IMG/VR virus record: IMGVR_UViG_3300036791_000670
Span: 1 to 35,749 of that record
DNA: 35,749 nucleotides
Strand: one strand, 5' to 3'
DNA from: a virus
The notes beneath the pieces are model-generated. The model had not been told where the DNA came from. It was given only the letters and a program-made list of their open reading frames with translations, and searched no databases. This document shows, piece by piece, positions 8,594-35,549 of this stretch. The stretch's first letter is position 1. Each line of letters starts with the position of its first letter. Position numbers and translations under genes: made by a program.

Positions 8594-8610
8594 AACCAGG
8601 GAAAACTAAA

Positions 8611-10577: not shown

Positions 10578-10580
10578 CCC

Positions 10581-11093: not shown

Positions 11094-11095
11094 CG

Positions 11096-14701: not shown

Positions 14702-14705
14702 TAAA

Positions 14706-15200: not shown

Positions 15201-15212
15201 AGGAGAGACAAC

Positions 15213-17528: not shown

Positions 17529-17532
17529 AACC

Positions 17533-17901
17533 ATGCCCACAAATATCCTTTACATGCCGCAAGTCGCGATGGCCATGACCGTGGCGACCAATGCCGATTG
17601 GCTGGATGGCCTAGAGTATTGGGACTTGCAAGCGCCGCCGCAGCCGATTGATTTGGATGGCATCGCGTTCGAACTTGAGCTTCGCTCCAGCCCGCCCGCC
17701 GCGACCGTCGTAATCCAAGCCTCGACCGATAACGGTCTGATCGTTGTTTACGACAACACTTGGCAGTTGCTGGTGCCGGCGGCAACCATGCTGCTGCTTC
17801 CGCCCGCGACCTACGTCTATGACATGCTAGGCGTGGCGGACGGCTATACGCGCATGCTCGCGTCTGGCACTGTTTCTGTCGTGCAGGGAGTCACCAGATG
17901 A
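17533..17901 (+). CDS. Small beta-rich tail accessory protein before the collagen-like fibre
   Basis: A 122-residue protein that reads like a beta-sandwich: DLDGIAFELELRSSPPAATVVIQASTDNG, then LLPPATYVYDMLGVADGYTRMLASGTVSVVQGVTR. The ending, a YVYDL-like strand followed by G-x-V-x-V-x-x-G-VTR, is a pattern I associate with small phage proteins encoded just before fibre genes and with baseplate upper protein-like domains. It overlaps the collagen-like gene by ATGA, so the products are probably made together. A role as adaptor between baseplate and the collagen-like fibre is inference. Confidence 0.55.
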   Translation: MPTNILYMPQVAMAMTVATNADWLDGLEYWDLQAPPQPIDLDGIAFELELRSSPPAATVVIQASTDNGLIVVYDNTWQLLVPAATMLLLPPATYVYDMLGVADGYTRMLASGTVSVVQGVTR

Positions 17902-19295: not shown

Positions 19296-20089
19296 TTTTT
19301 CGCGCGCTGCTTGTTAGCATCGCGCTGATCGCCCTCACTGACGTCGCGCAAGCGCAGTGCTCGGGCCAACCGGGTGCTAACACATTTTGTGCTGGCCCGC
19401 CCTCGGGCGGCACGGGCTTGCCTAGTTGGCGAGCTTTGGTCGGTGCTGATCTTCCAGCTCCGTTAACCGCTCCGATCCAAGTGAACTCGACGGTAATCAC
19501 TGGTGGCACTTCGGGCCGCACTCCGTACAACAATGCGGGCGTCTATGGCGAATACGCAATGGGCGGCGATTGCACGCTGGCGGTGCCTAGCATTACTTGT
19601 ACCAAAACCGGCGGCGCACCATTTGCTACATCAGCCACGACCGACGCGACCAATGCCAACAACATCGGCAGCGGCACGCTTAATAATGCACGGCTCAATA
19701 TGGCGGCGGCGGCGGACTTCAGGGCTGGCACCGCTGGCAAGATTTTGCCAGCAGATCAAGTATTCACCGCCGAGGTCGCCGTTACCTATGGTGCAACCAC
19801 AACCTTTGATTTCTCGACGTTCATCAACGCCAGCGTGACGCTGACCGGCAATATCACCACCATCTCCTTCACCAACGTCAAGGCTGGGCAAGCAGGTTTA
19901 ATCCGTTTCATCCAGAGCGGGGCCGGTAGCTTCACGGTGCCTTCTACCATCAACACAAATCTCAAATGCCCCGGCGGCTGCAACGTCGTGCTCACCACCG
20001 GCAGCGCGACAGCAGTCGATATACTCGCCTATCAATGCATCTCGACCACGTACTGCATCGGCGGCGCATTGCTGAAGGATGTGAAATGA
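19280..20089 (+). CDS. Fibre-like protein with Sec signal peptide
   Basis: A 269-residue protein that overlaps the collagen-like gene by 16 bases. It begins with a convincing Sec signal peptide: a short positive start, a hydrophobic core LLVSIALIALT and a cleavage site AQA before Gln26. The mature part is Ser/Thr/Gly/Ala-rich and beta-like (NNARLNMAAAADFRAGTAG, TFDFSTFINASVTLTGNITTISFTNV), similar to phage fibre shaft sequence. It has about eight cysteines, several as close pairs (CTLAVPSITC, CPGGC), which suits folding in the periplasm. Phage structural proteins are normally cytoplasmic, so the signal peptide is unusual. Its stop overlaps the start of a second, larger exported-looking protein. 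No defined family is recognised. Confidence 0.65.
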   Translation: MGNALIFRALLVSIALIALTDVAQAQCSGQPGANTFCAGPPSGGTGLPSWRALVGADLPAPLTAPIQVNSTVITGGTSGRTPYNNAGVYGEYAMGGDCTLAVPSITCTKTGGAPFATSATTDATNANNIGSGTLNNARLNMAAAADFRAGTAGKILPADQVFTAEVAVTYGATTTFDFSTFINASVTLTGNITTISFTNVKAGQAGLIRFIQSGAGSFTVPSTINTNLKCPGGCNVVLTTGSATAVDILAYQCISTTYCIGGALLKDVK

Positions 20090-23000: not shown

Positions 23001-24471
23001 CGTTGCAAGCGGTTCCGGCGGCAAGGGTGGCGATGGTACTGTTTGTCCGATTGATGGAACGACTTACGCGGGCGGCGGCGGCGGCGAGGCTCCTGTAAAC
23101 TTTGGTGCTGGTGGCGCAGGCGGCGGTGGGGCTGGTGGCGCAGCCGGTCTTGGTACAGCAGGAGCCGCGAATACGGGCGGCGGTGCTGGCGGAAGTTTTT
23201 CTACAGGCGTTGCTGGCGGTTCCGGCAAGGTGATCATTGATGAAGGACCACCCCCTTCACCTTGGCAAAGCTTGGTCACCATTGCTCCTGGCTCTGACAA
23301 CACAGGCTGGAACAGCTTCGGTGTCCGACAGTGGATCGGAACCGGCGCGTATGGGTCACCTAACGCATCCTCGCAAGTCAGAGTGTCGATCAGGTCTGGA
23401 TCGGTCGCTCTGGTTCTCTCTGATGTATTCGTCGGGCACTCTGCTGGACCTACCGGAACTGCAACGCAGAACTATGACGGCTCGCAAGTCAGGGTGACGT
23501 GGAGCGGCGCTAACGGCGTGACCATTCCGGTGAATTCGACCGTAGTGAGCGACGCCATAAACTACGCTTTCGATCCGAGCAAGGATTTGATCGTCGGGAT
23601 CAACGTAACCAGCGGTGCCACGCAGGTGACATCCAATGGGGGAACTAACTTTCAAGAATATCACAATGCATCGCAAGCATCTTGTCCTGCGCCGAACACG
23701 AGTTGCACATATGCTTTCGCGGCCCCCGCCGGAAATTCCTACTTCGTCGCCAAGGTCGAGACCGCTGGCGCGGGCTGCACTGCTAATACACAAGGCGGTG
23801 GCACCTTCGCGAACACTCTCGGGCTGTGGCACTTCGACAACAATGGCACGGACAGCAGCGGGAACAGCCGCACGTTGTCGCTCGTTTCAGGGGCGGTGTA
23901 TTCGAACACGCAGAGCAAGTTTGGCGGCTACTCTGGAAACAACGTGACCACCAGCAGCACCTTTGTTGCTGCTACTTCCCCTGCCGCGACGACGGGCGAC
24001 CTAACAATGGAGGGGTGGTTTTATCTCACGTCCGCTGCGACACAGTTTGTTCTCTATGAAGATTATCTCGTGGGGAACAACGTCAGCTTCACTCTCAATT
24101 ACGGTCAGACGAACAGTGGGGCATTCACACTAGGCCACTATATCAATCCAACTTCTGGTTTAGACCATCAGTACGGCCCATGGGCATGGACGCCCGTCAC
24201 CAACACATGGACGCAGTTCGCTGTTGTTCGCAAGTCGGGAACGTGGAGCATGTTCATCAACGGCACCACGCTCAATCCAACAGCAGGGGTGACGGGTTCG
24301 ACTGACTCGATATGGCTCGGTGCCAGTTTCCCGTTGCTGTTGGGAAACGCCTACAGCGGCGGCTCCCCAAACGTGCCCGGCTTTCTCGATGAGTTTCGTA
24401 TCAGCAACGTGGCTAGATACAGCACCGGCATCAATTTCACGCCGCAACCGACGGCGTTCTGCAATAACTAA
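20086..24471 (+). CDS. Giant Gly-rich adhesin-like protein with signal peptide and two LamG-like domains
   Basis: The ATG at 20086 (ATGA overlap with the previous stop) gives 1461 residues. Upstream in-frame starts lie inside the previous gene and give a basic, implausible leader. The start is a Sec signal peptide (MRRTVISLAFLLASAWSLYAQ). Next come: a Gly-rich module 1 (about 37-305) opening with TASGTLTCPS and VVAGGGAGGGG; module 2 (about 308-420); LamG-like domain 1 (about 425-629: GLWHMDNSG, DFTAEAWLYM, WHHVAWERQGGNLRIFLDG, MDEVRVSNMVRYTGNF); more Gly-rich sequence (630-800); Gly-rich module 3 (about 804-1050); a beta-rich domain (about 1058-1230); LamG-like domain 2 (about 1245-1461) resembling domain 1 and ending FCNN. 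Cysteines mark module boundaries. A carbohydrate-binding adhesin or giant fibre is likely. Confidence 0.75.
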   Translation: MRRTVISLAFLLASAWSLYAQLPGTFAPILVAGGGAAPPCTGGTITVAGSTTIHTFTASGTLTCPSTRNVSYLVVAGGGAGGGGSGGGGGGGGVLSSFYSITAGDALQITVGGGGVGAAGSGGNGNDSVFNVTALHGSTLTATGGGGGGFNTNGAAGGSGGGAGLSASATVGGAGTAGPPVQGLKGGDGYPAGNLSAGGGGGCGSQGINGVNSASGNGGTGCTSSISGTSTVYGAGAGGGGRSGYPTSAGNPGDACAGASAAGSVAGSPGVNNRGCGGGGGGYGGAVGNGGNGGSGIVIVAYSTSGNDCLTSGTGNTITSVGGQTAYNFVSNGSLLCPSSRVAKYLLVGGGGGGGAGAGGSNNASGGGGAAGQTVSGIGNFSGTIPILIGAGGAGGIHATAGTGSAGGTTTIGCVANTQGGGSDANVLGLWHMDNSGTDNSSAGTRGLTLNGTAAYSATQAKFGGSLKIVATGDYAGFPGTSLSLTGDFTAEAWLYMTAVPANYFGWIGDDQATNLLAYSAPALGSQIASTSATITATIAVFTPNAWHHVAWERQGGNLRIFLDGVEQAGSPKSGLPTSTAGGSATTWKIGRAYSNTYMMPANSYMDEVRVSNMVRYTGNFTPQGAPFCNPGTASSVSDGAVGGAGGANNGSTGGSGYNGGGAGGQNASGGAGVGTHFNGGTGFTGTNYGAGAGAGDGGPGGSGTGSTGGTGGIGVTPTGFGLASCIAGGGAGGTYNGGTTATATCGGGNAGTAGGDNQGVPGAPNTGGGAGGNSEAAAASVKDGSIGGSGEVIIVEGGTIPGCTVSGTGNTATVVNGFNRYTMTSSGTITCAVTTTVRYCIVAGGGGGGNGSGGNGAGGGGGGGMFIGSGGTLANGANAITVGAGGPASTVGANTTAIGFTANGGGAGGNNSAVGGNGGAGGGGGQGSPINAGGLGSQGGNGGSSGGVVIATGGGGGGGGPSNNPGANATDVASGSGGKGGDGTVCPIDGTTYAGGGGGEAPVNFGAGGAGGGGAGGAAGLGTAGAANTGGGAGGSFSTGVAGGSGKVIIDEGPPPSPWQSLVTIAPGSDNTGWNSFGVRQWIGTGAYGSPNASSQVRVSIRSGSVALVLSDVFVGHSAGPTGTATQNYDGSQVRVTWSGANGVTIPVNSTVVSDAINYAFDPSKDLIVGINVTSGATQVTSNGGTNFQEYHNASQASCPAPNTSCTYAFAAPAGNSYFVAKVETAGAGCTANTQGGGTFANTLGLWHFDNNGTDSSGNSRTLSLVSGAVYSNTQSKFGGYSGNNVTTSSTFVAATSPAATTGDLTMEGWFYLTSAATQFVLYEDYLVGNNVSFTLNYGQTNSGAFTLGHYINPTSGLDHQYGPWAWTPVTNTWTQFAVVRKSGTWSMFINGTTLNPTAGVTGSTDSIWLGASFPLLLGNAYSGGSPNVPGFLDEFRISNVARYSTGINFTPQPTAFCNN

Positions 24472-24472
24472 A

Positions 24473-25096
24473 ATGGAAGTCAAGGCCGACGTCAGTGCGT
24501 TGCTCAAGTTCGCCTCGCTGCTCGGGAAAGTCCCATCCTATACCAACGTCAATGTTGCCCGCGCCATCAACTCGGTGGGCAGCAATGTGATGTTGGCGAC
24601 CGCGCGCAGGATCGCCAGTCGTACTGGCATGTCGGTTGAGTACATCATCTCCAAGATCAAGGTAACGCCGGCCACGCCCAATAACTGGACGTGGAAGATG
24701 GACACCTCCGAGATAGCGCCGCCGGAAACCGGGGACGAGGAAGAGGTGGCCGACGAAACGGCAGGCGATGATATGCTGGTCAAGATCGTAACTGCGGACG
24801 ACGAGCAGGTCTGCCCTATCTGCCTGGAGGCGGCGTCCGAGAACCCATACTCCATGACCGAGATACGGGATAAGCAGGCGACCCTGTACCTGGGCGAAGG
24901 CGAGGACGCCGGCTTGTTGCATCCGCATTGCCGCTGCGTGCTCAAGCCGTTCTGGCCGCTGCGCAAGCTGCCCGTAAGCATCGGGGAGCTTGGCATCGAT
25001 ATGGAGGCCATGACCACCGGGCAAATAGCGGATGCCGTAAGCGACAGCCTTGAGACCGTTTTTCGGGCCGAAGGGATGCCGGTGACCCGCCGTTAG
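24473..25096 (+). CDS. Small protein with a Mu gpF-like zinc-binding C-terminal motif
   Basis: The ATG at 24473 follows the giant adhesin's stop after one base; in-frame upstream starts lie inside that gene. The 207-residue product starts with a helical region that may resemble minor tail proteins (VDVSALLKFASLLGKVPSYTNVNVARAINSVG, ATARRIASRTGMS). From about 118 it has CPICLEAASENPYSM and HPHCRC: the C-x-x-C ... H-P-x-C-R-C arrangement that closes the Mu gpF/SPP1 gp7 family of minor head proteins. The catalytic or portal-binding part of gpF is absent. Encoded among fibre genes, it could be a minor virion protein with a transplanted zinc module. The function is not known. Confidence 0.6.
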   Translation: MEVKADVSALLKFASLLGKVPSYTNVNVARAINSVGSNVMLATARRIASRTGMSVEYIISKIKVTPATPNNWTWKMDTSEIAPPETGDEEEVADETAGDDMLVKIVTADDEQVCPICLEAASENPYSMTEIRDKQATLYLGEGEDAGLLHPHCRCVLKPFWPLRKLPVSIGELGIDMEAMTTGQIADAVSDSLETVFRAEGMPVTRR

Positions 25097-25252
25097 GGGG
25101 GTTTGCCCCGGAATAGGAGGCCCCTGGGAGCCATTTTAAGGCCCGCTGGTGCGTTTTGGCGGGCTACCCTTGGCACCTCTAGCTCCCTAGCTCTCAAATC
25201 GCCCGCCCAAAGGTACAATAATGCTCTCGTTCAATCAAAGGAGTTAGATCAA
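25097..25252 (+). promoter_or_regulatory. Non-coding leader with hairpin and possible promoter
   Basis: This 156-base gap is the longest in the fibre region. It holds a GGGG-TTTG-CCCC-type mini-hairpin (about 25098-25109) just after the previous stop, a hairpin with arms GCCCGC (25141-25146) and GCGGGC (25159-25164), and a -10-like TACAAT (25214-25219) without a convincing -35 box. The AAAGGAG ribosome binding site for the next gene is at 25237-25243. A late promoter or an mRNA processing site is possible; the evidence is weak. Confidence 0.3.
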
Positions 25253-25636
25253 ATGGCAGTCAACTACGCAGCAGCACTCAAGGATACCCGTATGACGGCG
25301 GTGCTCAACGCAATCGACAACAACGCGGCGGCGGCCTACATCGAGATCGGCACCGCCGCGATGGCGGCGGTCATCGTTACCATCACCTTGAGCAAGCCGT
25401 CGTTCTCGGAAGGCAGCCAGCAGATAACCATGCTCGGCGTTCCGAAAAGCGGCACCGCCTCGCTCGCCGGCACCAACACCGCTGCGGCGGCGCGCATCAA
25501 GGACGGTGGTGGCAACGTCCAGGTCAGCGGCTTGACGGTCGGCACCTCCGGCTCGGATATCAACCTGAATTCGACCTCGATCACCAGCGGGCAAACCGTT
25601 ACACTCTCCAGCGGAACTATAACCCACGCCCCATAG
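25253..25636 (+). CDS. Conserved-looking phage virion protein
   Basis: A 127-residue protein; ATG 25253 is fixed by AAAGGAG nine bases upstream. It starts MAVNYAAALKDTRMTAVLNAIDNN, then IEIGTAAMAAVIVTITLSKPSF and LTVGTSGSDINLNSTSITSGQTVTLSSGTITHA. I associate this arrangement with small structural proteins of unknown function in tailed phages; the C-terminal part is beta-rich with Gly/Ser/Thr turns. No enzymatic motif is seen. Its isolated start and strong ribosome binding site suggest high expression, as expected for a virion protein. The precise role is not known. Confidence 0.65.
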   Translation: MAVNYAAALKDTRMTAVLNAIDNNAAAAYIEIGTAAMAAVIVTITLSKPSFSEGSQQITMLGVPKSGTASLAGTNTAAAARIKDGGGNVQVSGLTVGTSGSDINLNSTSITSGQTVTLSSGTITHAP

Positions 25637-25643
25637 GTGACGC

Positions 25644-25814
25644 ATGGACTTCGATGACGAACTGAAAGGATTGCTGGACCTCTATAAGTTCAAGCCGTTC
25701 GCGGAGCAGGAGAAAGCGGTCGCGGCGTTGCATCGCAAGCACGGTCGCGAGGTCCCGCCGCCGATTACCGGCACCATCAACGTGACCGAACCGAAAGACG
25801 CATTCAAGAAGTGA
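25644..25814 (+). CDS. Small acidic-basic protein of unknown function
   Basis: A 56-residue ORF with ATG 25644 and TGA 25812-25814, in the gap between two better supported genes and too short for most gene finders. The sequence MDFDDELKGLLDLYKFKPF is followed by a charged helical part (EQEKAVAALHRKHGREV) and a short tail (TGTINVTEPKDAFKK). It lies 7 bases after the preceding stop and its stop overlaps the next start as GTGA, which supports translation. No family is recognised. A helper or assembly role for its neighbours is only a guess. Confidence 0.55.
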   Translation: MDFDDELKGLLDLYKFKPFAEQEKAVAALHRKHGREVPPPITGTINVTEPKDAFKK

Positions 25815-26218
25815 CCCAGCAATCCATTGGCATCGGCTCGGCCCCCAACGATGGCACCGGCGATCCGGTGCGGACGGCGTTCGACAAGTGCAACAAGAAC
25901 TTTGCCGAATTGTACCAGCCGCAGCGGCGGGTGACGGCCAGCCCCATCACGGTCGCGGCCACCGACGTAATCATCAACTGCGCGATTAGCAGCGGGTCTC
26001 CCACCTGCACCCTGCCGCCATCCGGGTCGCGCGGTGGCGTGCCACTCGTGTTCAAGGACGTCGGCGGCCACTTCGCCGCTAACAACCTGACCATCACGGC
26101 GGCGGCCAGCGAGTTCATGGATGGGCTGGCCACCATCGTACTCAGCACGAACTACCAGAGGCTAAAGCTGCTTCCAGTCAACGACGGCGTCGGGGTTGGG
26201 TGGTCCATTGACCAATGA
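25811..26218 (+). CDS. Small fibre-module protein sharing the collagen-like protein's C-terminal domain
   Basis: A 135-residue protein that starts with GTG in a GTGA overlap. The N-terminus (SIGIGSAPNDGTGDPVRTAFDKCNKNFAELY) is a familiar phage fibre or baseplate leader of the IG-x-APNDGTGDPLRTAFDK-x-NxNFxEL type. From residue 38 it matches the end of the collagen-like protein at 17898: RRVTASPITVAATDVIINC, PLVFKDVGGHFAANNLTI, MDGLATIVLSTNYQRLKLLPVNDGVGVGW. It is thus an attachment leader joined to a terminal knob module. It overlaps the repeat protein gene by ATGA. Confidence 0.7.
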   Translation: MTQQSIGIGSAPNDGTGDPVRTAFDKCNKNFAELYQPQRRVTASPITVAATDVIINCAISSGSPTCTLPPSGSRGGVPLVFKDVGGHFAANNLTITAAASEFMDGLATIVLSTNYQRLKLLPVNDGVGVGWSIDQ

Positions 26219-29181
26219 TATTCCCAACCGCCGATCTCACTTCGGTAACTGCGGATAGTACCCTATACACTGCCGACGCGTCCGTTACGCTAACCGCCGA
26301 CACCACCAAATTCACGGCGGATAATACTAACCTAACCGCCGATATGATTATGCTGCCCGCTATAGCGGGCACGCTGGCGGTCACGGAAGCAAGCGACTCC
26401 GCCGCCTTGGCCGGCTCGATTGTTTGGCCAGCCATAACCGGAACGCTGGTCGCCATCGAGGTTGGCGATAGCGCGTCAATCACCGGCTCGGCGGTCACGC
26501 TCGGCACGTTGGCGACAACCGAAGCCGCCGACACTTCCAGCTTCTCCGGCACCATTGCTTGGTACGGCAGCCTAGCAGCAGCCGAAGCCGGCGACTCCGC
26601 CAGTCTCACAGGTCTTGTTGGATTACTCGGAAGCCTAGCCGCAGCCGAGGCGGATGACATTGCCGCCCTGTCCGGCGCGGTCGAATGGCTCGCAGCATTA
26701 ACGGCGACGGAGGCAGGCGACTCCGCTGCCATCCCCGGCATCGTCACCTGGTATGGGACGATGGCCGCCGCCGAGGCGGCAGACGCCGCGAGTCTATCCG
26801 GCCTGGTCGGACTGCTCGGGTCTCTAGCGGCAACCGAAGCCGGCGATAGCGCCAGCGTCTCCGGGGCGGTTGAATGGATCGCCGCGCTGGCCGCAACTGA
26901 AGCCGGCGACAGTGCGATCTTTACCACGCTCTCCGGCTGGTCCGGTTCGCTGGCCGCGACCGAGGCCGGCGACACCTCCGATTTCGAAGGGCTGGCCGGC
27001 GTAATCGGAACGCTGGCCGCCGCCGAGAACGACGATAGTGCTGACGTCTCCGGCCAGGTCGTTTGGCTCGCGATATTGGATACGACCGAGGCGGCGGATA
27101 AGCTCAGAGTACCTGCCACGGTTGACTGGCAAGCGGCGCTGGCCACGACCGAAGCCGGCGATAGCTCCGACATTGAAGTCAGCGTCGAATGGTTTGGCAG
27201 CTTCGCCGCCACCGAGGTTGGTGACTCCGCCATCTTCACTACGCTCTCCGGTTGGACCGGCGCGCTGGCGACGACCGAAGCCGATGATTTGTTCAGCGGT
27301 GCTGGACTCGTTGGCCTGCTCGGGTCGCTGGACGCCACCGAAGCCGACGACACATCTGACTTCGAAGCGTCCGCAGTTTGGCTCGGCGCGCTGGCCGTCG
27401 CTGAAGCTGCGGACAGCATGGCGGCAAGCGGCCTGCTCGGCGCGCTCGGAACCCTGGCGGCGACCGATGCCGGCGACTCCGCCAGCCTAGCCGGCTCCGC
27501 CGCATGGTTTGCTACGCTGGCGGCGACCGAGGCCGGCGATACCGCGCTCATCAGCGCCGACGCGGTGCCGCTGCTCACCGGCACGCTGGCCATTACCGAA
27601 GTCGCGGACGCCGCTGCCTTCGCCGGCAGCCTGGGCATCGTCGGTGCGCTGGCGGCGACCGAGGCCGGCGATACTACATCGTTTCCTGGGCAAGCCTATA
27701 CGCTCGGCGCGCTGGCGGCGGCGGAATTCTACACCGACGTTTTCAGCGTAGTCGGGACGGTCAGTCTATTTGGACCTCTGGCCGCCACCGAGGACTCGGA
27801 TCAGGCTGCCGTAGTTGGCACCGTTGCTTGGTTCGCCACCCTCGCCGCGATTGAAGCTGCTGACTTTGCCGATATCGAAAGCAACGTCACCGAATTCGGC
27901 AACTTGGCGGCCATCGAGGCTGACGACGTCGCTGCCTATTCCGGCATTGTTCAATGGCTCGGGAATATGGCGGCAGCGGAGCAGGGCGATAGCGCCGCCG
28001 GCTCCGGCAGCATTACCTGGCCCGGCACGCTGGCCGCCACCGAAGCTGCTGACCTGGCGGCTATCTTCGGCCAGGCGCAGACGCTTGCTGGTTTGGTGGC
28101 CAGCGAAGCCGGCGACCTCGCCGCCTACTCCGGGACGGTTGCTTGGCTGGCGACGATGGCTGCGGCGGAGGCCGGCGATAGCACGGCGTTCCCCGGCACC
28201 GTGGCTTGGTACGGCAATCTGGCCGCGCCCGAGGCCGGCGATAGCGCTACCGTAGCCGGCCTTGTCGGCTTGCTGGGTGCGTTGGCCGCGCCCGAGGCTC
28301 AGGATATAGCGGCGGTTGCCGGCGCGCGAACGTGGCAAGCCGTGCTGGCCGCCACCGAGGCGGCGGATCGCGCCAGCCTCCCCGGCGTCGTTGCGTGGTA
28401 CGGAAGCATGGCGGCAAGCGAAGCCGCCGACCATGCCAACCTCGCCGGCCTCGCCGGCCTCATGGGTTCGCTGGCCGCGAGCGAAGCCCCCGACGTTGCG
28501 ATATTCACCAGCGCTACCGCGTGGCACGGTGCCTTGCTGGCGACCGAGGCAGCGGATAGTGCCAGCGTAGCCGGCCAGGTCATAAGCAGCGGTGCGCTGG
28601 CCGCCGCCGAGACCAACGATAGCGCCGCCGTTGCCGGACTCGTTGGCGTGCTCGGCGCGTTGGCGGCAACCGAAGCGGCGGATGCCGCCAGCTTCCTCGC
28701 GGTCACCGAAGCCTACGGCAGCCTGGATGCGACCGAGGCCGGCGACCTGGCGGCCCTCGACGTTCACGTCGGCCACTTCACCTACCCGCTGCCGCCCTGG
28801 ATCGACGCCGGTTTCATCGGGCAGGGCGAAGGGCCAAGTGCTGAAGTTGTCGTCGGACCCGCCACCATCACGGGGCAGTCCGGTAGCGTCATCAACGCGG
28901 TAGCGGTTGCAGGACCCGCCACCATCACCGGCAAAGCAGGAGCCGCCCCGCTGGTTGGGGCCGGCCCTGCCGTCGCGATAACAGCCAGTCGGCCCGGGGT
29001 CAGCTTCACCGGACAGCCGGCAACGATGCTCGTTTCACAAACGCAGAGCCTAACTTCCCTGGAGGGCTCGGCGCGGTCTGGTCCGACCTCTCGTAAGATT
29101 GCGTCGGGCCAGACCTCCTTTGTAGGAGGTGGCAGTGGCGGTAACGCATCACGACTACGTCGAGCTTCGAGCAGGCGATGA
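26215..29181 (+). CDS. Long fibre-like protein built of 21-residue tandem repeats
   Basis: A 988-residue protein. Residues 1-45 hold a short repeat in which TAD recurs about every seven residues (TADLTSVTADSTLYTAD and on). Residues about 51-855 are some 38 copies of a 21-residue unit of the form G-(S/T)-L-A-A-(T/A)-E-A-(G/A)-D-(S/T)-A-x-(L/F/V)-x-G-x-V-x-W-(L/Y). Two units are longer by one or two residues. The last 130 residues (GHFTYPLPPWIDAGFI, then GPATITGQSGS and GPATITGKAGA repeats, then a basic Arg/Ser-rich end) are different. There is no cysteine. The regular period, acidic turn (EAGD) and hydrophobic pairs suggest a beta-solenoid-like fibre shaft. The terminal 47 bases overlap the next gene. 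The function is inferred from the neighbouring fibre genes. Confidence 0.75.
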   Translation: MIFPTADLTSVTADSTLYTADASVTLTADTTKFTADNTNLTADMIMLPAIAGTLAVTEASDSAALAGSIVWPAITGTLVAIEVGDSASITGSAVTLGTLATTEAADTSSFSGTIAWYGSLAAAEAGDSASLTGLVGLLGSLAAAEADDIAALSGAVEWLAALTATEAGDSAAIPGIVTWYGTMAAAEAADAASLSGLVGLLGSLAATEAGDSASVSGAVEWIAALAATEAGDSAIFTTLSGWSGSLAATEAGDTSDFEGLAGVIGTLAAAENDDSADVSGQVVWLAILDTTEAADKLRVPATVDWQAALATTEAGDSSDIEVSVEWFGSFAATEVGDSAIFTTLSGWTGALATTEADDLFSGAGLVGLLGSLDATEADDTSDFEASAVWLGALAVAEAADSMAASGLLGALGTLAATDAGDSASLAGSAAWFATLAATEAGDTALISADAVPLLTGTLAITEVADAAAFAGSLGIVGALAATEAGDTTSFPGQAYTLGALAAAEFYTDVFSVVGTVSLFGPLAATEDSDQAAVVGTVAWFATLAAIEAADFADIESNVTEFGNLAAIEADDVAAYSGIVQWLGNMAAAEQGDSAAGSGSITWPGTLAATEAADLAAIFGQAQTLAGLVASEAGDLAAYSGTVAWLATMAAAEAGDSTAFPGTVAWYGNLAAPEAGDSATVAGLVGLLGALAAPEAQDIAAVAGARTWQAVLAATEAADRASLPGVVAWYGSMAASEAADHANLAGLAGLMGSLAASEAPDVAIFTSATAWHGALLATEAADSASVAGQVISSGALAAAETNDSAAVAGLVGVLGALAATEAADAASFLAVTEAYGSLDATEAGDLAALDVHVGHFTYPLPPWIDAGFIGQGEGPSAEVVVGPATITGQSGSVINAVAVAGPATITGKAGAAPLVGAGPAVAITASRPGVSFTGQPATMLVSQTQSLTSLEGSARSGPTSRKIASGQTSFVGGGSGGNASRLRRASSRR
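26365..28779 (+). repeat. 63-bp degenerate tandem repeat array (about 38 units)
   Basis: The array encodes the 21-residue units of the preceding entry. At the DNA level recurring pieces such as GCTGGCCGCCACCGAGGC and GGCGATAGCG appear at 63-base spacing, but individual units differ by many substitutions. Codon-level divergence with conserved protein pattern shows selection on the protein, not recent slippage. Most units keep exactly 63 bases; a few have insertions of 3, 6 or 9 bases, always in frame. Confidence 0.85.
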
Positions 29182-29761
29182 TTGGATAATCCAGGCAACC
29201 CTGCTCAACCCGGACGGCTCAGCGTACGACCTGACCAACGCTACGGTCGAGTGGATTTTGCTGGGGCCGGACGGGATGACGGCAATCGACCAAGGCTGGA
29301 CTTTCCAAGTCGCGGAGCCGGCGACGGGCGGGCAGGGCGTGGTTCTGGTTGACAACAAGCTCACCGCGCCATTGGCTCCCGGCTACTACATGGATGCGCT
29401 ACGGGCGATCACGCCGACGCCGACCGACCCGAACCTGCAAGTAACCACCATGTGGGATGGGCAGATCGGGGTCTGTATAAATATGTTTTTCGGCTTGCAA
29501 GTAATGCCGGTCGGGACTAGCGTTACGGGTGACGACGCTGCGGCAATCCCCCCACCCCCATTGCCTCAAGTCGTCTACCCCGACGCTCTAACGTCGATGG
29601 CGCTAGGGGGACCTGCGTTGCCCCCTAGCGCGGGTCCTCCTTCCGGGCCTGCTCGATCCTCCCCAGTGCCGCCAGAGATGGTGCCCACCCGCGTAGGCTC
29701 CGTGGTCGATCCGGGTCTCGAACCCGGTCCAGTTGGCGGCGGGATGGTCGGTTATGATTGA
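29135..29761 (+). CDS. Baseplate upper protein-like fibre accessory protein
   Basis: The GTG at 29135 is preferred over GTG 29129 because AGGAGG (29124-29129) lies five bases before it. The 208-residue product begins MAVTHHDYVELRAGDDWIIQATLLNPDGSAYDLTNATVEWILLGPDG and continues APGYYMDALRAI and WDGQIGV, the pattern of a small beta-sandwich found in baseplate upper proteins (BppU-like) and fibre adaptors. The last 60 residues are Pro/Gly-rich and contain a strong DNA hairpin (29601-29630). This is the last gene of the rightward block. Its stop TGA at 29759-29761 lies inside the end of the leftward regulator gene, so the operons overlap tail to tail by 10 bases. Confidence 0.65.
   Translation: MAVTHHDYVELRAGDDWIIQATLLNPDGSAYDLTNATVEWILLGPDGMTAIDQGWTFQVAEPATGGQGVVLVDNKLTAPLAPGYYMDALRAITPTPTDPNLQVTTMWDGQIGVCINMFFGLQVMPVGTSVTGDDAAAIPPPPLPQVVYPDALTSMALGGPALPPSAGPPSGPARSSPVPPEMVPTRVGSVVDPGLEPGPVGGGMVGYD
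29601..29630. other. Perfect 10-bp inverted repeat near the end of the late operon
   Basis: CGCTAGGGGG (29601-29610) and CCCCCTAGCG (29621-29630) pair perfectly around a 10-nt loop, just after a smaller hairpin (CGACG 29581-29585 with CGTCG 29592-29596). Neither strand has a T-run next to it, so this is not a standard intrinsic terminator. Placed about 130 bases before the convergence point, it may slow or end transcription in both directions or stabilise the late mRNA end. Confidence 0.5.
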
Positions 29762-30054
29762 GGGTTATCGACTCGCCAAACGCTAACCAGCGTTCCGCCC
29801 GCTTCCTGGCGATGCTCCAACCGGACGCCGAGGGTCACCAGCAGCTTACGGATTAGCATCGCCTCCTCGATTAACATCGCGGCCTGCCGCCCCATTGAGC
29901 GGCGATGCCGCAACCCCTCCGCCCGTAGCGCTTCCTTGGTCTCGGGCGCGAGATGCATAACGACCGTTTGCTGATTTGTCCGTCTTGAACCTGGTGGCCG
30001 ACCGCGCCTCCGGGGCGCGGTAGCTGTGTCAGTGGTAGAGTCGGTCGGGTCCAT
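29752..30054 (-). CDS. Ribbon-helix-helix-like DNA-binding protein with AT-hook-like tail
   Basis: The start at 30054 is chosen because AAAGGA precedes it on the minus strand; the longer frame upstream reads as Ala/Thr/Pro-rich shadow of the preceding gene. The 100-residue product has a basic RRRGRPPGSRR segment (15-25), an AT-hook-like minor-groove motif, then QTVVMHLAPETKEALRAEGLRHRRSMGRQAAMLIEEAM (about 29-66), the strand-helix-helix pattern of Arc/MetJ-type regulators. The end is less clear. It is last in the leftward operon and overlaps the zinc ribbon gene by 26 bases. A role as regulator of this operon is likely; the palindrome at 30415 is a candidate operator. Confidence 0.65.
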   Translation of the reverse strand: MDPTDSTTDTATAPRRRGRPPGSRRTNQQTVVMHLAPETKEALRAEGLRHRRSMGRQAAMLIEEAMLIRKLLVTLGVRLEHRQEAGGTLVSVWRVDNPQS

Positions 30055-30403
30055 CTTGTGTCCTTTCCGCCCATATATCCCCATCCCCGTAGTTGGCGAC
30101 GTTGAAGCCGTGCCGGCATCTCGGGTTGGAGCAATAGATGTTGACGTTCGTGCCTGCGGTTGGTCCTTGATAGAAGTCCTCGCCGCCGCAGTCGGGGCAG
30201 ATGTTGGTTTTGATGTAGCCGCCCAGCCGCCATTCCTCACGCCCGTTCTTGGGCGGCGGCGGCCTATCGGTGATGCGTGGCGCAACGATTAGCGGTTTGG
30301 GGACGTACCAACGCCCGACGATGGCGTACAAGGCAATGGCAGCGAACAAGAGTGCGAATGCCGGGAGCGCCGTCTCCGGGGGCACGTGGCTAAAGTTAAA
30401 CAT
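30029..30403 (-). CDS. Membrane-anchored zinc ribbon protein
   Basis: A 124-residue protein. An N-terminal hydrophobic segment (about 11-30, ALPAFALLFAAIALYAIVG) would cross the membrane. After a Pro-rich linker (40-55) comes a zinc ribbon with Cys69, Cys72, Cys91 and Cys96 (CPDCGG ... CSNPRC) and the ending HGFNVANYGDGDIW. Such CPDCGG-x-x-F ... C ... C-x-x-x-FNV ribbons occur as small proteins in many phages, usually without a membrane segment; joining one to a membrane anchor is less usual. The start ATG at 30403 has AGAGGG upstream. Function unknown. Confidence 0.7.
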   Translation of the reverse strand: MFNFSHVPPETALPAFALLFAAIALYAIVGRWYVPKPLIVAPRITDRPPPPKNGREEWRLGGYIKTNICPDCGGEDFYQGPTAGTNVNIYCSNPRCRHGFNVANYGDGDIWAERTQDGPDRLYH

Positions 30404-30430: not shown

Positions 30431-30455
30431 CAACAGGGGGCGCGTGCGCCCCCTG
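30427..30455 (-). terminator. Intrinsic terminator after the PEP-CTERM genes
   Basis: On the minus strand, 10-bp arms (CAGGGGGCGC at 30434-30443 in + orientation and GCGCCCCCTG at 30446-30455) form a very stable GC-rich hairpin, followed by TTGTTTA. It stands 24 bases after the stop of the 30479 gene and would end transcription of the PEP-CTERM genes before the zinc ribbon and regulator genes. Confidence 0.75.
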
Positions 30456-30478: not shown

Positions 30479-31126
30479 TTACGCGAACGCGCCGGTGACC
30501 CGCCGCCGATTGCGGAAGGCAAAGCCGAGTCCAACGAAGCCCAGGAGCATCATGCCCCAGGTCGCCGGCTCCGGCACCGCCGTGGATATGTCAATACCCC
30601 CGTTGAATGAACCCTCACCGACCGAGGAGATCAGATAGTGCTCATCGGCAGTGAAGAGCGTGCCCGCAAACGCGGCGTTGATGGAGGACGCCGAGTCAGA
30701 CACTCCGGTGAACGTGGGAGTGGTGGCAAGCAGCACGCCATTTATGGTCGTTCGCTCGATCACACTCCAGCCTGCCGTCTGACCGCTCACCGAGAAGCTC
30801 GACAGGAAGTTCTCCAGCGCATTCGGCCCAGCAAGACCGGTCGCCGTGATGTCCAAGACCAGCGTGTGGTTGCCAAGCGCGGTTTGATCCACGTCTAGCG
30901 TATTGCTCGAAAGGATACCTGGGGGTGCCAGGAATGTTTCCGAGTTGATGCTCAAGCTGTTCAAATTAAAAACGCCGAACGCTTGATTGGTGATGGTCAA
31001 CGAACCATCAGGGCTACTGGCAGAGCCAGCGGCCACTCCGTCGACGGTCGCCGTTAGATTGATCGCATCTGCGAGGGCGGGACCTACCGCCAAGGCGAAC
31101 ACGCTTGCTAGTAAGAGTTGCTTCAT
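30479..31126 (-). CDS. PEP-CTERM sorting-signal protein A
   Basis: A 215-residue exported protein. It starts with a signal peptide (MKQLLLASVFALAVGPALA, cleavage before Asp20 or so). The middle is beta-rich, Ser/Thr/Asn-rich and free of cysteine (LTATVDGVAAGSASSPDG, NHTLVLDITATGLAG). It ends with a full PEP-CTERM tag: VPEPATW, a hydrophobic stretch (GMMLLGFVGLGFAF) and a basic end (RNRRR). Such tags are processed by an exosortase and keep proteins at the outer surface or in the extracellular polysaccharide of some Gram-negative bacteria. The ribosome binding site is GGGTGA. The neighbour at 31204 has the same tag on an unrelated middle part. In a phage this looks like an accessory gene acting on the host surface. 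Confidence 0.85.
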   Translation of the reverse strand: MKQLLLASVFALAVGPALADAINLTATVDGVAAGSASSPDGSLTITNQAFGVFNLNSLSINSETFLAPPGILSSNTLDVDQTALGNHTLVLDITATGLAGPNALENFLSSFSVSGQTAGWSVIERTTINGVLLATTPTFTGVSDSASSINAAFAGTLFTADEHYLISSVGEGSFNGGIDISTAVPEPATWGMMLLGFVGLGFAFRNRRRVTGAFA

Positions 31127-31161
31127 TTTGTCACCCGATTAGGTGGAGGGAAAACTTGGAA

Positions 31162-31175
31162 GGGCGCGTACGCCC
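31162..31175 (-). terminator. Weak hairpin between the two PEP-CTERM genes
   Basis: GGGCG and CGCCC form a 5-bp stem with a 4-nt loop (CGTA on +), followed on the minus strand by a short T-rich piece (TTCCAAGTTTT). It may attenuate transcription between the two PEP-CTERM genes. The stem is short and the T-tract interrupted. Confidence 0.3.
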
Positions 31176-31203
31176 ATCCCGATATCGATGCCGTTTCTTG
31201 TTA

Positions 31204-31920
31204 TTAGGCGAAGCCCGCGATCCGCCGACGTGAGCGGAACGCAAACCCGAGACCGATGAAGCCGAGGAGCATCATGGCCCATGTTGCAGGCTCTGGAACT
31301 GCCGCGACCGGATTGACCGATGCGAAGCCGGTCAGGCCATTGCCGGCAGTGGCGCTCGTGTCCGACCACACGGTCAGGCCGAGAAGATTGCCCGCTGCAT
31401 TCGGCACAAGGCTGGCCAAGTTCAGACCACCCTGCAACGTATCGCCAAGCGTAAACGACACGCTGGTAACGTGCGTCGTATTGGCCTGACAAAACGTGTT
31501 GCAGTCGATCCCGAACTGCCACGTGCCTGTCCCGTCCATTTGGCCGACATTCAGCAACAGCAAGCCCGCCGTGGTCCCGGATGGGTTCGCGTCGGTGAAT
31601 GTTGCGCTGAGGAGTTGCAGGTCCGCGCCAAGGACAGACGTATTATTGATGTCCTTGCCGAGGTCGAACCCGATGGTCGGATGGCCGGCTGAACTCGCCC
31701 CGTGAAAGAATAGGTCGAAATTCTGCCCGGCAGGGTCGAGGTTAAGCTGGATGGTGACGGTCCCGTTGAGATTGTCTGTCACCGAACCAGAACCCGCAGC
31801 TTGCGGGACACCGGAGTCAAATCCGTTATTGGACGTGACGCCGATGGTCGTCTGTGCGCTTGCGGGCGTCAAACCGAACGCGGCAAGCGCAACCGCAGTG
31901 AGTAATAGCTTGGCTTTCAT
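31204..31920 (-). CDS. PEP-CTERM sorting-signal protein B (PEPxxWA type)
   Basis: A 238-residue exported protein with a signal peptide (MKAKLLLTAVALAAFGLTPASAQ, cleavage after ASA) and a beta-rich Asn/Thr/Gly-rich middle part (DNLNGTVTIQLNLDPAGQNFDLF, SVSFTLGDTLQGGLNL) with one close cysteine pair (CNTFC). The C-terminal tag is VPEPATWAMMLLGF followed by IGLGFAFRSRRR, the PEPxxWA variant common in Alphaproteobacteria. A very good ribosome binding site (GGAGG, five bases before ATG) and an AT-rich leader suggest its own promoter. At the DNA level only the end of the gene resembles its neighbour, so the two proteins share the sorting tag but not the domain it anchors. Confidence 0.85.
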   Translation of the reverse strand: MKAKLLLTAVALAAFGLTPASAQTTIGVTSNNGFDSGVPQAAGSGSVTDNLNGTVTIQLNLDPAGQNFDLFFHGASSAGHPTIGFDLGKDINNTSVLGADLQLLSATFTDANPSGTTAGLLLLNVGQMDGTGTWQFGIDCNTFCQANTTHVTSVSFTLGDTLQGGLNLASLVPNAAGNLLGLTVWSDTSATAGNGLTGFASVNPVAAVPEPATWAMMLLGFIGLGFAFRSRRRIAGFA

Positions 31921-32010: not shown

Positions 32011-32286
32011 TTATTCGGGCTTGAATGGATTTTTCGCGAGCACCTTCAACGCCACCGTAACCCGCGCATCGCGAGCAAACTTTAGAAGCTCGTCAATGCT
32101 TGGCTCGCGGAGGGTCAGGTCCTCGTTGAACACCGCAACGTGCCGGCAGTACGCGCATATGCTGGCATCGCCCGAATGGGGGCGGGCGTAGAGTTCGCCA
32201 ATAACGGAGGCGGCATCATTAAGCGCGCCGCACTCGGGGCATCGCGAGGGCGGCACGCAGGGGGTTGGTACTAGGTCGGTGCCCAT
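32011..32286 (-). CDS. Small double-CxxC zinc ribbon protein
   Basis: A 91-residue protein. The pairs CPEC (16-19) and CAYC (44-47) enclose about 25 residues and end with RHVAVFNEDLTLREPS, the layout of a small zinc ribbon. The C-terminal part (DELLKFARDARVTVALKVL) is helical. The ATG at 32286 follows the stop of the upstream gene directly (TAAATG) with AAGGA before it. Zinc ribbons of this size in phages are usually of unknown function; a role in transcription or in protein contacts is possible. No membrane segment. Confidence 0.7.
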   Translation of the reverse strand: MGTDLVPTPCVPPSRCPECGALNDAASVIGELYARPHSGDASICAYCRHVAVFNEDLTLREPSIDELLKFARDARVTVALKVLAKNPFKPE

Positions 32287-32619
32287 TTATTCCTTGGATG
32301 CTTGGCTTACGGTTGTTGCCCAGGTTTGCACCAGGTGGGTTAGGATCGGGGCCAGCTTAATCGGTGCCACCGAAAAATCAAACCCGGCGTCCTTGTCCTG
32401 GTTCTTATTTATCTCGGCGGCCAAGCCGATGCCGATTTGCTGCGCCTCGTCGTAGGTCAGGCTCTTGAGCGCCGCCGCGATGGCTTGTACCGGATTACTG
32501 TCGATGGTGTTAGTCTGGTCGACGTGCCGCCCGAGTATGTCGGCCAGCGAGCTTAACCCCTTGTCCACTTTGCGCGCCTTGGGTGGGGCGAACTCTTGTA
32601 CCGTGCTTTGGTCCGTCAT
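32287..32619 (-). CDS. Hypothetical phage protein in the recombination operon
   Basis: The ATG at 32619 is favoured because GGAG precedes it by seven bases; an in-frame ATG at 32631 is also possible. The 110-residue protein begins MTDQSTVQEFAPPKARKVDKGLSSLADILGRHVDQT and continues ALKSLTYDEAQQIGIGLAAEINKNQD and ILTHLVQTWATTVS. It looks helical with no catalytic motif, membrane segment or cysteine. It overlaps the SbcC-like gene by 110 bases in another frame, a long overlap. Its role is unknown; co-transcription suggests it works with replication or recombination. Confidence 0.6.
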   Translation of the reverse strand: MTDQSTVQEFAPPKARKVDKGLSSLADILGRHVDQTNTIDSNPVQAIAAALKSLTYDEAQQIGIGLAAEINKNQDKDAGFDFSVAPIKLAPILTHLVQTWATTVSQASKE

Positions 32620-34489
32620 TGTTGGCTCCATCTGCGACCTCGTTATCCAGCGAGATGCTGGCACCGTCATTGTCGCGCGTAACGGTTAACACTGCGTTAA
32701 AGCGGTCACTGTCTACCGCCCGATGATCCACAAACCAGACTTGCCGGGAGAGCGTCCGCGCCCGCGCAGCCAGGAACCCGACCAGGTCCCGGACCCCTTG
32801 CAGGCTCAAGTGCTGCGTCGGCTCGTCCAGGACCTCGATCCCGGGCTCGACGCCGGCGTGGTTAAGCAGGGTTTCGGAAAGCGCCAACGCCCCAAGCAAC
32901 CGGAGGCGTTGGCTTTCCCCACCCGACCAGTTCTCCCACCGCACGTTGCGTTCCAATGACGGCGAGAAGATGGTCACGTATAAGCCGCGCTGCGTGCTCC
33001 CGGATTTGGTCTCGCGCTCGATGGCGTAGGCGATCCGCCAGCCAATCAATCCCATCTCGTCCAGCATGGCGTTGGAGCAAAGCTCAAGCTCCTGTAGCAC
33101 CTCCTCGACAATGTGCAGTCGCACGTCCTTGAACCCTTTGACCCAGTGCGTATGCCGGGCGTGCTTACGCCGCTTGACGATTAGGTCCTTGTCGGTCAGG
33201 ACTATTTCCCCCTGCAATACAACCGCCCGCCGTTTCAGCCGGTCTAGCTCCTTGTTGAACGGGTTGACCTCGGTCTCGCCGTCCAGCTTGGCGCGCTTGA
33301 GAGCGTCGATCTTGGCCTGCATCTCGGCTTGGTCGGGCCGGCGAGCGTCGAGAATATCCCGGGCATCACGGGCCTTTGTCTGAAACTCATCACGTTTTCT
33401 GCCAGCCTCAGAAAGCTGCAGCTCCAGGTCCTCCAGCGCTTTCTTCGCACCCTTGTCGTTGAGATGCACCAGCGCCTTCTTGAGATTGGCAATGGCGTTG
33501 TCCAACTCCTCGCGGTGCTTGTCGAGGCGGGTGCCTTTGATGGGCTGGTCGCAAACCGGGCACCTGCCGTTGCTGCCGAACTTGATCCGTTGCTCCTGCT
33601 TGATGCCTAACTCGCGCTGCAAGCCATTCGCCTCGGAGCGTAGGTCGGCCAGCCGGTCGCGGGCGTCGTTGCGATATTGCTCCATCTGCGCCCGCTCATT
33701 GTCCAGGTGCCGTAGCTCGGTCATGGCGGAGTCGTAGGTCAGGTCTGCCTCATCGATGACCTTGCTTATCTCTGCCAGCAACTTGTTAAAATCCGCCAGC
33801 CGGGCGTCCCGCTCCTTTTCCTCCTTGGCTCGCTGGCTCTCCCATCCATCCGCCATCAGCCGCACCCGCTTGCGGCTTTCCTCAAGCTCGGCCAGCGCCT
33901 GCTCGCGCCCCGCCCGCTGGGTCTCTGCCGTCGCGATGTTGGCGGCAATCGTATCGGCGGTCCGCTTGGCGGCGTCTGACCGGGCATCCCATCGGTCGAG
34001 GCGGAGCACGCTGGAGAATAACTCCAGCTTCTCGCGCGGCGGCAGGTCGTAGAATAACGGCTGGCCTTGCCCAAGCATTACGGTATTGACGAAGGTCTCG
34101 TAAGTCAGGCCAACAGCGTCCTCGATATCCTCGTCGGTGACCGGCTCGTCGTTCCATTCGATCTTATTGATGCCGTGGGTGCCGCGCGAAAGTAAGCACG
34201 GCTCGCCGTCCAGGCGTAGCTCCAACGTCACGTTGGTGCCGCCGCGATGCGGCTGCCACGGCTGGATATCGGGCGAGCGCAAACCGCTGGCGGTTTTGCC
34301 ATAGAGCACCCAGGTGAGCGCGTCCCATAGCGTGGTCTTGCCGGCACCGTTGGAGCCTAGCCGGGGCTCCACCAGATTGCGCCCGCGTACGAAGTTGAGC
34401 CCGCCGCCAACGGCTCGGAAGTCGAGCGAGACTTCGCCGGCCATGTTCTTGAAGTTGGTGATGTGGATGCAGTCGAAGTCTAGTTTCAT
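32510..34489 (-). CDS. SbcC/Rad50/T4 gp46-like recombination ATPase
   Basis: The start at 34489 (MKLDFDCIHITNFKNM) is chosen because it overlaps the small membrane ORF as ATGA and gives the family's normal N-terminus; upstream in-frame starts read through that ORF. The 659-residue protein has Walker A GSNGAGKT (45-52), a Q-loop-like VNTVMLGQGQPLF, a long coiled coil (about 170-490) broken by a zinc hook CPVC (310-313), the ABC signature WSGGESQRLRL (about 521-531) and Walker B IEVLDEPT (about 548-555). With the nuclease encoded just upstream it would form the DNA end-processing complex used in phage recombination-dependent replication. It is close in size to T4 gp46 (560). The last 40 residues are basic, low-complexity and lie in the overlap with the next gene. 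Confidence 0.9.
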   Translation of the reverse strand: MKLDFDCIHITNFKNMAGEVSLDFRAVGGGLNFVRGRNLVEPRLGSNGAGKTTLWDALTWVLYGKTASGLRSPDIQPWQPHRGGTNVTLELRLDGEPCLLSRGTHGINKIEWNDEPVTDEDIEDAVGLTYETFVNTVMLGQGQPLFYDLPPREKLELFSSVLRLDRWDARSDAAKRTADTIAANIATAETQRAGREQALAELEESRKRVRLMADGWESQRAKEEKERDARLADFNKLLAEISKVIDEADLTYDSAMTELRHLDNERAQMEQYRNDARDRLADLRSEANGLQRELGIKQEQRIKFGSNGRCPVCDQPIKGTRLDKHREELDNAIANLKKALVHLNDKGAKKALEDLELQLSEAGRKRDEFQTKARDARDILDARRPDQAEMQAKIDALKRAKLDGETEVNPFNKELDRLKRRAVVLQGEIVLTDKDLIVKRRKHARHTHWVKGFKDVRLHIVEEVLQELELCSNAMLDEMGLIGWRIAYAIERETKSGSTQRGLYVTIFSPSLERNVRWENWSGGESQRLRLLGALALSETLLNHAGVEPGIEVLDEPTQHLSLQGVRDLVGFLAARARTLSRQVWFVDHRAVDSDRFNAVLTVTRDNDGASISLDNEVADGANNDGPKHGTRVRPTQGAQSGQGVKLAGRHTRAARRPD

Positions 34490-34566
34490 GGCCAGCGCAC
34501 CACGTATATAATGGCGCAACATGCGATCAAGATCGGAATGACCCAGAGTATATCGAGCGCCGTCAT
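34486..34566 (-). CDS. 26-residue single-pass membrane peptide
   Basis: A very short ORF filling exactly the gap between the nuclease and ATPase genes. Its ATG (34566-34564) overlaps the nuclease stop as TAATG, and its TGA (34488-34486) overlaps the ATPase start as ATGA. The product is one hydrophobic helix (LWVIPILIACCAIIYVV) with Asp5 at one end and Arg24 at the other, as in a small membrane protein. A GGAG lies about 10 bases before the start. The double coupling strongly suggests that ribosomes pass from the nuclease through this ORF to the ATPase; the peptide may be made as well. Nothing else about its function can be read. Confidence 0.6.
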   Translation of the reverse strand: MTALDILWVIPILIACCAIIYVVRWP

Positions 34567-35549
34567 TATAGCAACTCCAATCCGACCTGGAGGGTCTTGT
34601 CATCTATCGAATGCATGCGCGCGTAGCGGCGCAGCAACTCCTCGTCGGTCTCAGTCATGCCGGCGCGTTTCTTAACCGCCGCCGACCGATCCGCCTTCTG
34701 CACGATGGGCTCGACTGCGTAGACCACATAGCCCTGCTCGGTTGCCATATTGCGAACCCGCTCGCGTATCTCCGGCCATTTGGCATAGTCCTGCTTGGCC
34801 AGCCCGACTCGCAGCTTGAGAATATCACCTTTGTTGATCCCGCGCATGGTTTCCGGGAGGCCGTGCCGGTCCAGGACAACCAGCCGCTTCTGCGGCCCCG
34901 GCACCGGGATGGACTCGAACCGGAATGGCTTGTCGCGGATGGTCATCACGCGCGGTGTATAATCGTCCCCGAAGTCCACGGTATAGGGCGCGCCGACGTA
35001 GGTGATCTTCTTATGCATCTGCGGCGTATGGATATCGCCGGCGATGATCAGGCAGCTTGGCGGGAAATACGACGGCGGGATGCCGGGCAGCATGACGCCG
35101 TTGGCCATCGCGCCCTCGAATGTGTTGTGTGCAAATATCATCGGATATGTGCGGAAGCTGTCCTTTATGGAGTCCCAATCGCGGCGATAGTTAGTGGTGT
35201 GCGGCAAGAACAAATAATCCCCGACTTGGGTTGGCTTGTCGATGAATAGGATGTTCTGCACCATATCGAGGAAGGCGAAGAACGGAAACCCGGACCCGGC
35301 GTAGTCGTGATTGCCGCGCAGAATGACGATGCTGACTAGCTGCGCCAGCTTATAGAACGCATCCGAGATGCGATTGACCAGCCAAGAGCCGTGGTTATCC
35401 TTTTCCTCGGTTAGATCACCAAGAACATAAAGCCACTCGGCCTTTTCGGCCATTAGCATTATCCGCAGCGTCTTCTCCAGGAACTGCCAGCGGTACTCAT
35501 CGCGCGGATTATCGGTCAGACTCAGGTCGGATGTGATCAGGACGGTCAT
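34566..35549 (-). CDS. SbcD/Mre11/T4 gp47-like nuclease with altered metal ligands
   Basis: A 327-residue calcineurin-type metallophosphoesterase. Recognisable motifs: SDLSLTD (Asp8) where the family has D-x-H, GDL (Gly44, Asp45), RGNHDY (Asn80, His81), FAHNTF (His141) and GDIH (171-174) where the family has GHxH. The first motif therefore has Ser10 instead of His, and the last has Asp172 instead of the first His. The C-terminal part (about 200-327) is the region that contacts the SbcC-like partner. It overlaps the upstream HTH-like gene by ATGA and is coupled to the membrane peptide downstream. The pairing with an SbcC-like gene makes the call secure; activity is uncertain because of the substitutions. 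Confidence 0.85.
   Translation of the reverse strand: MTVLITSDLSLTDNPRDEYRWQFLEKTLRIMLMAEKAEWLYVLGDLTEEKDNHGSWLVNRISDAFYKLAQLVSIVILRGNHDYAGSGFPFFAFLDMVQNILFIDKPTQVGDYLFLPHTTNYRRDWDSIKDSFRTYPMIFAHNTFEGAMANGVMLPGIPPSYFPPSCLIIAGDIHTPQMHKKITYVGAPYTVDFGDDYTPRVMTIRDKPFRFESIPVPGPQKRLVVLDRHGLPETMRGINKGDILKLRVGLAKQDYAKWPEIRERVRNMATEQGYVVYAVEPIVQKADRSAAVKKRAGMTETDEELLRRYARMHSIDDKTLQVGLELL

Follow-up and report, generated by a model that had tools for sequence, protein, structure and literature searches.

The window, i.e., the whole stretch of DNA analysed here, is a linear IMG/VR virus record of 35.7 kb that contains contractile-tail genes. An operon of baseplate, tail and tail-fibre genes (5668..29761, plus strand) marks the record as phage and converges on a set of genes on the opposite strand. 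Read from the right, the minus strand encodes an SbcD-like subunit (phrog_100; 34566..35549), an SbcC-like subunit (phrog_77; 32510..34603), a small conserved phage protein (32287..32670; 74% in contig L013), a soluble zinc-ribbon protein (phrog_24566; 32011..32286), P2, P1, and a membrane zinc-ribbon protein (30029..30403). The two Sbc-like genes provide an early-gene context, and the soluble zinc-ribbon protein, the upstream neighbour of the P1/P2 pair, has relatives in L006, L007, L008, L009, and L013. On the plus strand, positions 26215-29181 encode a 988-aa protein with dozens of degenerate repeats (LAATEAGDSA...), which are too diverged for a tandem-repeat finder; the protein shares 40% identity with one of 928 aa encoded in L006.

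P1 (30479..31126, minus strand) encodes 215 aa from an ATG and represents ectodomain family A; P2 (31204..31920, minus strand) encodes 238 aa, likewise from an ATG, and represents family C. Each protein consists of a signal peptide, an ectodomain, which is beta-sandwich-like in P1 and beta-rich in P2, and a PEPxxWA-CTERM tag, encoded at about 30479-30577 in P1 and about 31204-31300 in P2. The P1 sequence contains MKQLLLASVFALAVGPALADA, then VPEPATWGMMLLGFVGLGFAFRNRRRVTGAFA, and the P2 sequence MKAKLLLTAVALAAFGLTPASAQ, then VPEPATWAMMLLGFIGLGFAFRSRRRIAGFA. As read from the sequence, the N-terminal signal peptides of P1, P2, and their relatives comprise a lysine, a hydrophobic core, and an AxA-type end. 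A PEP motif, a transmembrane segment, and a basic cluster are found at the C-terminus of both P1 and P2, and the tagged proteins are PEP-CTERM proteins by sequence definition. P1 and P2 score 34.7 and 28.4 bits with PF07589 (curated cut-off 20.7), and 37.9 and 38.6 bits with the PEPxxWA-CTERM model NF035944 (cut-off 35). The first-pass annotation of both genes as signal peptide, beta-rich middle part and full PEP-CTERM tag is borne out. TIGR02595 matches exactly two places in the record, namely P1 and P2, and has no match in 14 control genomes. The same annotation described the middle parts as unrelated and the tags as matching. This holds, as BLASTP aligns P1 and P2 over the tag alone (25/30 identical, 83%) and hhalign of the two ectodomain families finds no similarity beyond the leader.

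Relatives of P1 show a dN/dS of about 0.09-0.18, corresponding to strong purifying selection, and P1 is therefore more than a chance open reading frame. P2 contains a cysteine pair (DCNTFC / TCGLAC) that is also kept in its one relative, found in L006, and this fits an extracytoplasmic protein. The start codon of P2 is preceded by a GGAGG ribosome site. A 90-bp AT-rich gap precedes the gene, and a scan for sigma-70-type promoters found no match.

Phage setting and anatomy of the cassette

All evidence on the cassette comes from metagenomic contigs. The gene order of the window is repeated over the whole stretch in the independent contig L013, which excludes a chimera, and the base composition of P1 and P2 is that of the window. 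In the window, L006, L008, L013, and L096, the cassette is flanked by phage genes on both sides. Specifically, the pair of the P1/P2 type in L006 lies between an endolysin gene before it and an integrase gene followed by RecT after it, while in L096 the cassette is preceded by genes for RecE, RecT, and an integrase and followed by one for a tail lysozyme. The phage origin proposed earlier is thereby borne out through flanking genes in the window, L013, L006, and L096. Genes for recombination or replication are the neighbours of the cassette in the window, L013, L004, L007, L063, and L096. A terminase is encoded in 20 of 45 records, the window included, and a tyrosine integrase in 12 of them; nine of these 12 integrases are encoded less than 6 kb away from a tagged gene. 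No integrase was found in the window record. Contigs found solely via the tag (most of L011-L044) were left out of the evidence, as several may be host flanks of prophages. Among named phages, neither P1, P2, nor two family-B proteins had a match, nor did the first 25 kb of the window at the DNA level, and family B had no match among plasmids.

The genes had been placed between phage recombination genes and a phage zinc-ribbon gene. Both kinds of gene are indeed nearby, but the soluble zinc-ribbon gene lies upstream, between SbcC and P2, and the gene downstream of P1 (30029..30403, minus strand) encodes a different protein of 124 aa with an N-terminal transmembrane segment and a CPxC...CxNxxC zinc ribbon. 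When this membrane zinc-ribbon family was searched independently, a PEP-tagged gene was found nearby in all eight viral contigs recovered. Two of these contigs, L128 and L129, are absent from the results of the tag-based and ectodomain-based searches. The membrane zinc-ribbon protein is a possible regulator or partner of the cassette.

Directly after P1 lies a strong intrinsic terminator (30434..30455, minus strand) with a 9-bp stem followed by a T-rich stretch. Hairpins of a similar kind are found after the second gene in L003, L004, L006, L008, L009, L069, and L070, and the terminator is weak or missing in the other ten loci checked. Because of its position, the P1/P2 pair probably ends its own transcript and is not a piece of a long operon. 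The description of the two genes as lying inside a phage operon is correct in that they are located among phage genes, but needs amending with respect to transcription. With extra genes between phage genes on both sides, and an own terminator in the window and seven relatives, the cassette displays two hallmarks of morons.

Ectodomain families and sorting tags

Five ectodomain families were distinguished, A (P1), B, C (P2), D, and E, which occur in combinations: C-A in the window and L006, B-A in L003, A-B in L004, D-A in L007, D-E in L008/L009, and E-B in L013. Many further loci contain a single tagged gene. The P1 ectodomain is present in six other viral contigs with 50-92% identity, i.e., about 70-92% in L003, L004/L005, L006, and L007, and 50% over the whole protein in L068. 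The P2 relative in L006 shares 44% identity. Family B accounts for 64 viral loci and 47 distinct proteins. When the species genomes of 84,980 bacteria and archaea were scanned, there were pattern matches alone and no relative of families A and B, although the seeds used would catch 23 of the 47 viral B proteins (about half), so that absence from these genomes is not proven. The comparison of the ectodomains with phage and bacterial proteins, which had been suggested at the outset, thus yielded viral relatives, but none in named phages and, for A and B, none in the scanned genomes. No common origin is claimed for the P1, B, and E ectodomains: of the two hhalign matches, with probabilities of 81-87%, one owes its score largely to the leader and the other to a short stretch. 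A short third PEP match is located in the L003 contig (G001:16721), and a short viral contig, L014, encodes a partial PEP-CTERM protein (3-356) in which 11 consecutive histidines precede the tag.

The tags follow the genome. Within the 14 genomes that have two tagged genes, mean tag identity is 0.705; it is 0.443 when members of one ectodomain family are compared between genomes, and 0.459 in unrelated pairs. A value as high as that observed did not arise in any of 20,000 permutations; the test treats the phages as unrelated, and its result is therefore to be read as a strong tendency and not as an exact probability. In L063, the two tags are 94.5% identical over 91 bases of DNA and the ectodomains do not align.

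Exchange of ectodomains in place is seen in the sister phages L103 and L119, whose flanks are up to 95% identical. Their tagged loci agree in the leader (84% over 68 bases) and again in the tag and the DNA downstream of it (89% over 135 bases), but between these parts one phage encodes ectodomain B and the other ectodomain D. When the fetched flanks of L003 and L004 are compared, the two ectodomain cassettes alone are shared (92% and 88%), in inverted order. Judged from these sequences, tag and ectodomain evolve separately. The idea that different ectodomains had been given one sorting signal, drawn originally from P1 and P2, proves to be a general pattern across viral loci. L068 contains purine-rich low-complexity repeat DNA (14-706 and 2547-2789; units such as GGCGA and GGCAT) before and between its two tagged genes, and these repeats could promote recombination.

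Family B was found with a PEP, a VPLPA, or a VPGPxxGAGLPGL tag. Among 39 family-B proteins, ten carry a PEPxxWA tag and two match the VPLPA-CTERM model TIGR03370 (E <= 0.01). Family A has a PEP tag in the window and VPSPILGAGIPGL in L068, where the family-A gene adjoins a B gene with VPGPVVGAGLPGL, and family D has differing tag types in L008 and L119. The VPGPxxGAGLPGL tag is located at the C-termini of tagged proteins in L055-L057, L068-L070, L077, L081, L082, L084, L088, L091, L096, L098, and L106. In its full form, VPGPxxGAGLPGL...L..RRRR, it is recognised by no NCBIfam or Pfam model and is a candidate for a new class of sorting tag on the basis of its sequence. No sorting enzyme is known for it, so some of the tagged proteins may depend on a different enzyme or on no enzyme at all. 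Family-B proteins in L094 (214-906) and L100 (10001-10693) have a double tag, VPGPVAG with VPEPxTWxM immediately behind it, which looks like a VPGP tag extended by a PEP tag. Tags of 36-37 aa used alone as queries gave no match even at E 10, and are too short to inform on hosts.

Predicted folds and related systems

In the high-confidence model of family B (pLDDT of about 96 for the ectodomain), a beta-sandwich lies between a signal helix and a helix at the C-terminus. Its best matches among solved structures include many carbohydrate-binding modules (CBMs), with CBM29 foremost at a Z of about 8. P1 is likewise modelled as a beta-sandwich, at low confidence (mean pLDDT 64.5), and its best structural matches include a surface glycan-binding protein and CBM61/CBM4 (Z 7-9). 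A Z of 7-9 lies in the range of common arrangements, and glycan binding is therefore a lead and not a result. Neither family B nor P1 has meaningful sequence similarity to solved structures, and no catalytic domain was found in the tagged proteins. The possible likeness to CBM29, CBM22, CBM61, and CBM4 concerns the predicted beta-sandwich of family B (Z about 8) and, with less confidence, that of P1; the phage proteins differ from CBMs in having no enzyme attached. Fold matches to toxin domains with CBM-like folds were taken as shared fold and no more.

PEP-CTERM proteins occur only alongside exopolysaccharide (EPS) genes and an EpsH homologue in Gram-negative bacteria (PMC1569441). With these exosortase (EpsH) substrates, and within them the PEPxxWA-CTERM subtype (NF035944), the phage proteins share the signal peptide, PEP motif, transmembrane helix, and basic end, as well as an ectodomain without recognisable homology and the occurrence of unrelated ectodomains with near-identical tags (PMC1569441). 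They differ in being phage-encoded, often paired, early or integrase-proximal, and often followed by a terminator, in ectodomain families seen in viral contigs alone, and in a record that encodes no exosortase. The phage setting, the tag matching, and the ectodomain exchange set these proteins apart as a proposed form of phage-encoded surface modification.

The Ltp superinfection-exclusion lipoproteins of temperate Streptococcus phages are also prophage-encoded in the lysogeny region and displayed on the surface, as is proposed here, but they are lipid-anchored in a Gram-positive host (PMC3952083), whereas the products described here would take the route of a C-terminal sorting tag, in a host that is presumably Gram-negative. 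In hot-spring virus contigs, putative exosortase-interaction proteins (TIGR03118, n = 13) were listed as transferred genes (PMC11003980). These have an exosortase-type C-terminus in viral contigs as well, but belong to another family, and the report mentions them in passing, without neighbourhood, tag matching, or function. This mention was the nearest result of full-text literature searches for a characterised phage use of the exosortase route, which found none, in agreement with the first-pass annotation.

Possible routes to the host surface

Phages alter host surfaces via lipoproteins, membrane proteins, and enzymes. The tagged genes may do so by another route, as the annotation had supposed when it proposed use of the host sorting system during infection or lysogeny. 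No exosortase was found in the window record, where a search had been advised, nor in 76 other viral records; any processing of the tag would therefore have to be done by the enzyme of the host. A tag that matches the genome and not the ectodomain is expected if it must fit the enzyme of the current host. The proposed use of host sorting fits both observations. With respect to lysogeny, tyrosine integrases lie close to the cassette in relatives, but the window record has none.

In the reading that is preferred here, and to which we give about an even chance, P1 and P2 would form a phage-borne moron cassette that is mobile between phages. The signal peptide would export each product, and the C-terminal helix of the tag would hold it in the inner membrane. 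There, the host's own exosortase could recognise the tag and cut at or near the Pro-Glu-Pro motif, so that the ectodomain would end up on the outer surface of the infected cell or lysogen, or in its exopolysaccharide layer. The tag would serve as an exchangeable adaptor that suits whichever sorting enzyme the current host has, and the ectodomain as the variable, probably glycan-binding part that is exchanged between phages. The most likely benefit would be an altered or masked envelope to which competing phages adsorb, or through which they inject, poorly, i.e., superinfection exclusion. Alternatively, the lysogen might be kept in its matrix, as overexpression of a PEP-CTERM protein can keep EPS bound to cells (PMC9850573). 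Swappable ectodomains, an early or integrase-side location, and isolating terminators together fit a moron that changes the surface of the infected cell or lysogen.

The strongest competing explanation, although an unlikely one, treats the tag as a plain inner-membrane anchor, with a periplasmic ectodomain that blocks DNA entry by other phages without any exosortase. A signal peptide, a C-terminal hydrophobic helix, and a basic end suffice for such a topology, many tags, namely those of the VPGP type, are not recognised by any known sorting model, and the viral records are devoid of an exosortase. However, an anchor has no need of a PEP motif, yet PEPATWxMMLLGF is kept; the tag also tracks the genome more closely than a generic anchor requires, and two members match VPLPA-CTERM and ten PEPxxWA-CTERM. 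Somewhat less probable still is action late in infection, where the proteins would loosen or coat exopolysaccharide for virion escape as an accessory to lysis. Endolysin genes in the fetched neighbourhoods of 13 loci and the CBM-like fold would suit this role, but the lack of a catalytic domain does not, nor do the terminators that isolate the cassette from its neighbours, and in the window, L013, L004, L007, L063, and L096 the cassette keeps company with recombination or replication genes outside the lysis cassette.

That the tagged proteins merely saturate the host exosortase as decoys, thereby changing the host surface while their ectodomains are irrelevant, is very improbable: two tagged genes in one phage and genome-matched tags would be in line with it, but strong purifying selection acts on the ectodomains (dN/dS ~0.1), which retain 70-92% identity between phages. 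An even smaller chance is left to an assembly error or host DNA, i.e., genes of a bacterial chromosome beside a prophage, at 30.4-32.0 kb, a concern voiced in the first-pass annotation and now largely refuted. PEP-CTERM proteins are normally chromosomal, and several cassettes are near integrases, where prophage gives way to host DNA. Against this stand the independent contig L013 in the same order, the phage genes on both sides in five contigs (window, L006, L008, L013, L096), the six viral contigs with the P1 ectodomain, the matching base composition, and the 84,980 genomes in which families A and B were not found with seeds that would catch 23/47 viral B proteins.

A broader form of the preferred reading, host-directed sorting of a moron cassette, is put forward more tentatively, as we consider it somewhat more likely to be wrong than right. 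It would make the cassette one case of a widespread system of phage surface display, in which exchangeable ectodomains are inserted behind a leader that stays constant and ahead of an exosortase tag that matches the host. Recombination would then change both the effector and the sorting route, resulting in modular superinfection exclusion. This system would include the VPGPxxGAGLPGL...RRRR tag class, and the membrane zinc-ribbon protein as a partner of the PEP-tagged version.

If the reading is true, the poorly understood PEP-CTERM system would gain a clear external user. Phages would then provide natural sets of tags co-selected with host sorting enzymes, and ready-made pairs for testing the roles of exosortase tags and ectodomains. 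It would also indicate one way in which the envelopes of environmental bacteria that produce EPS come to vary.
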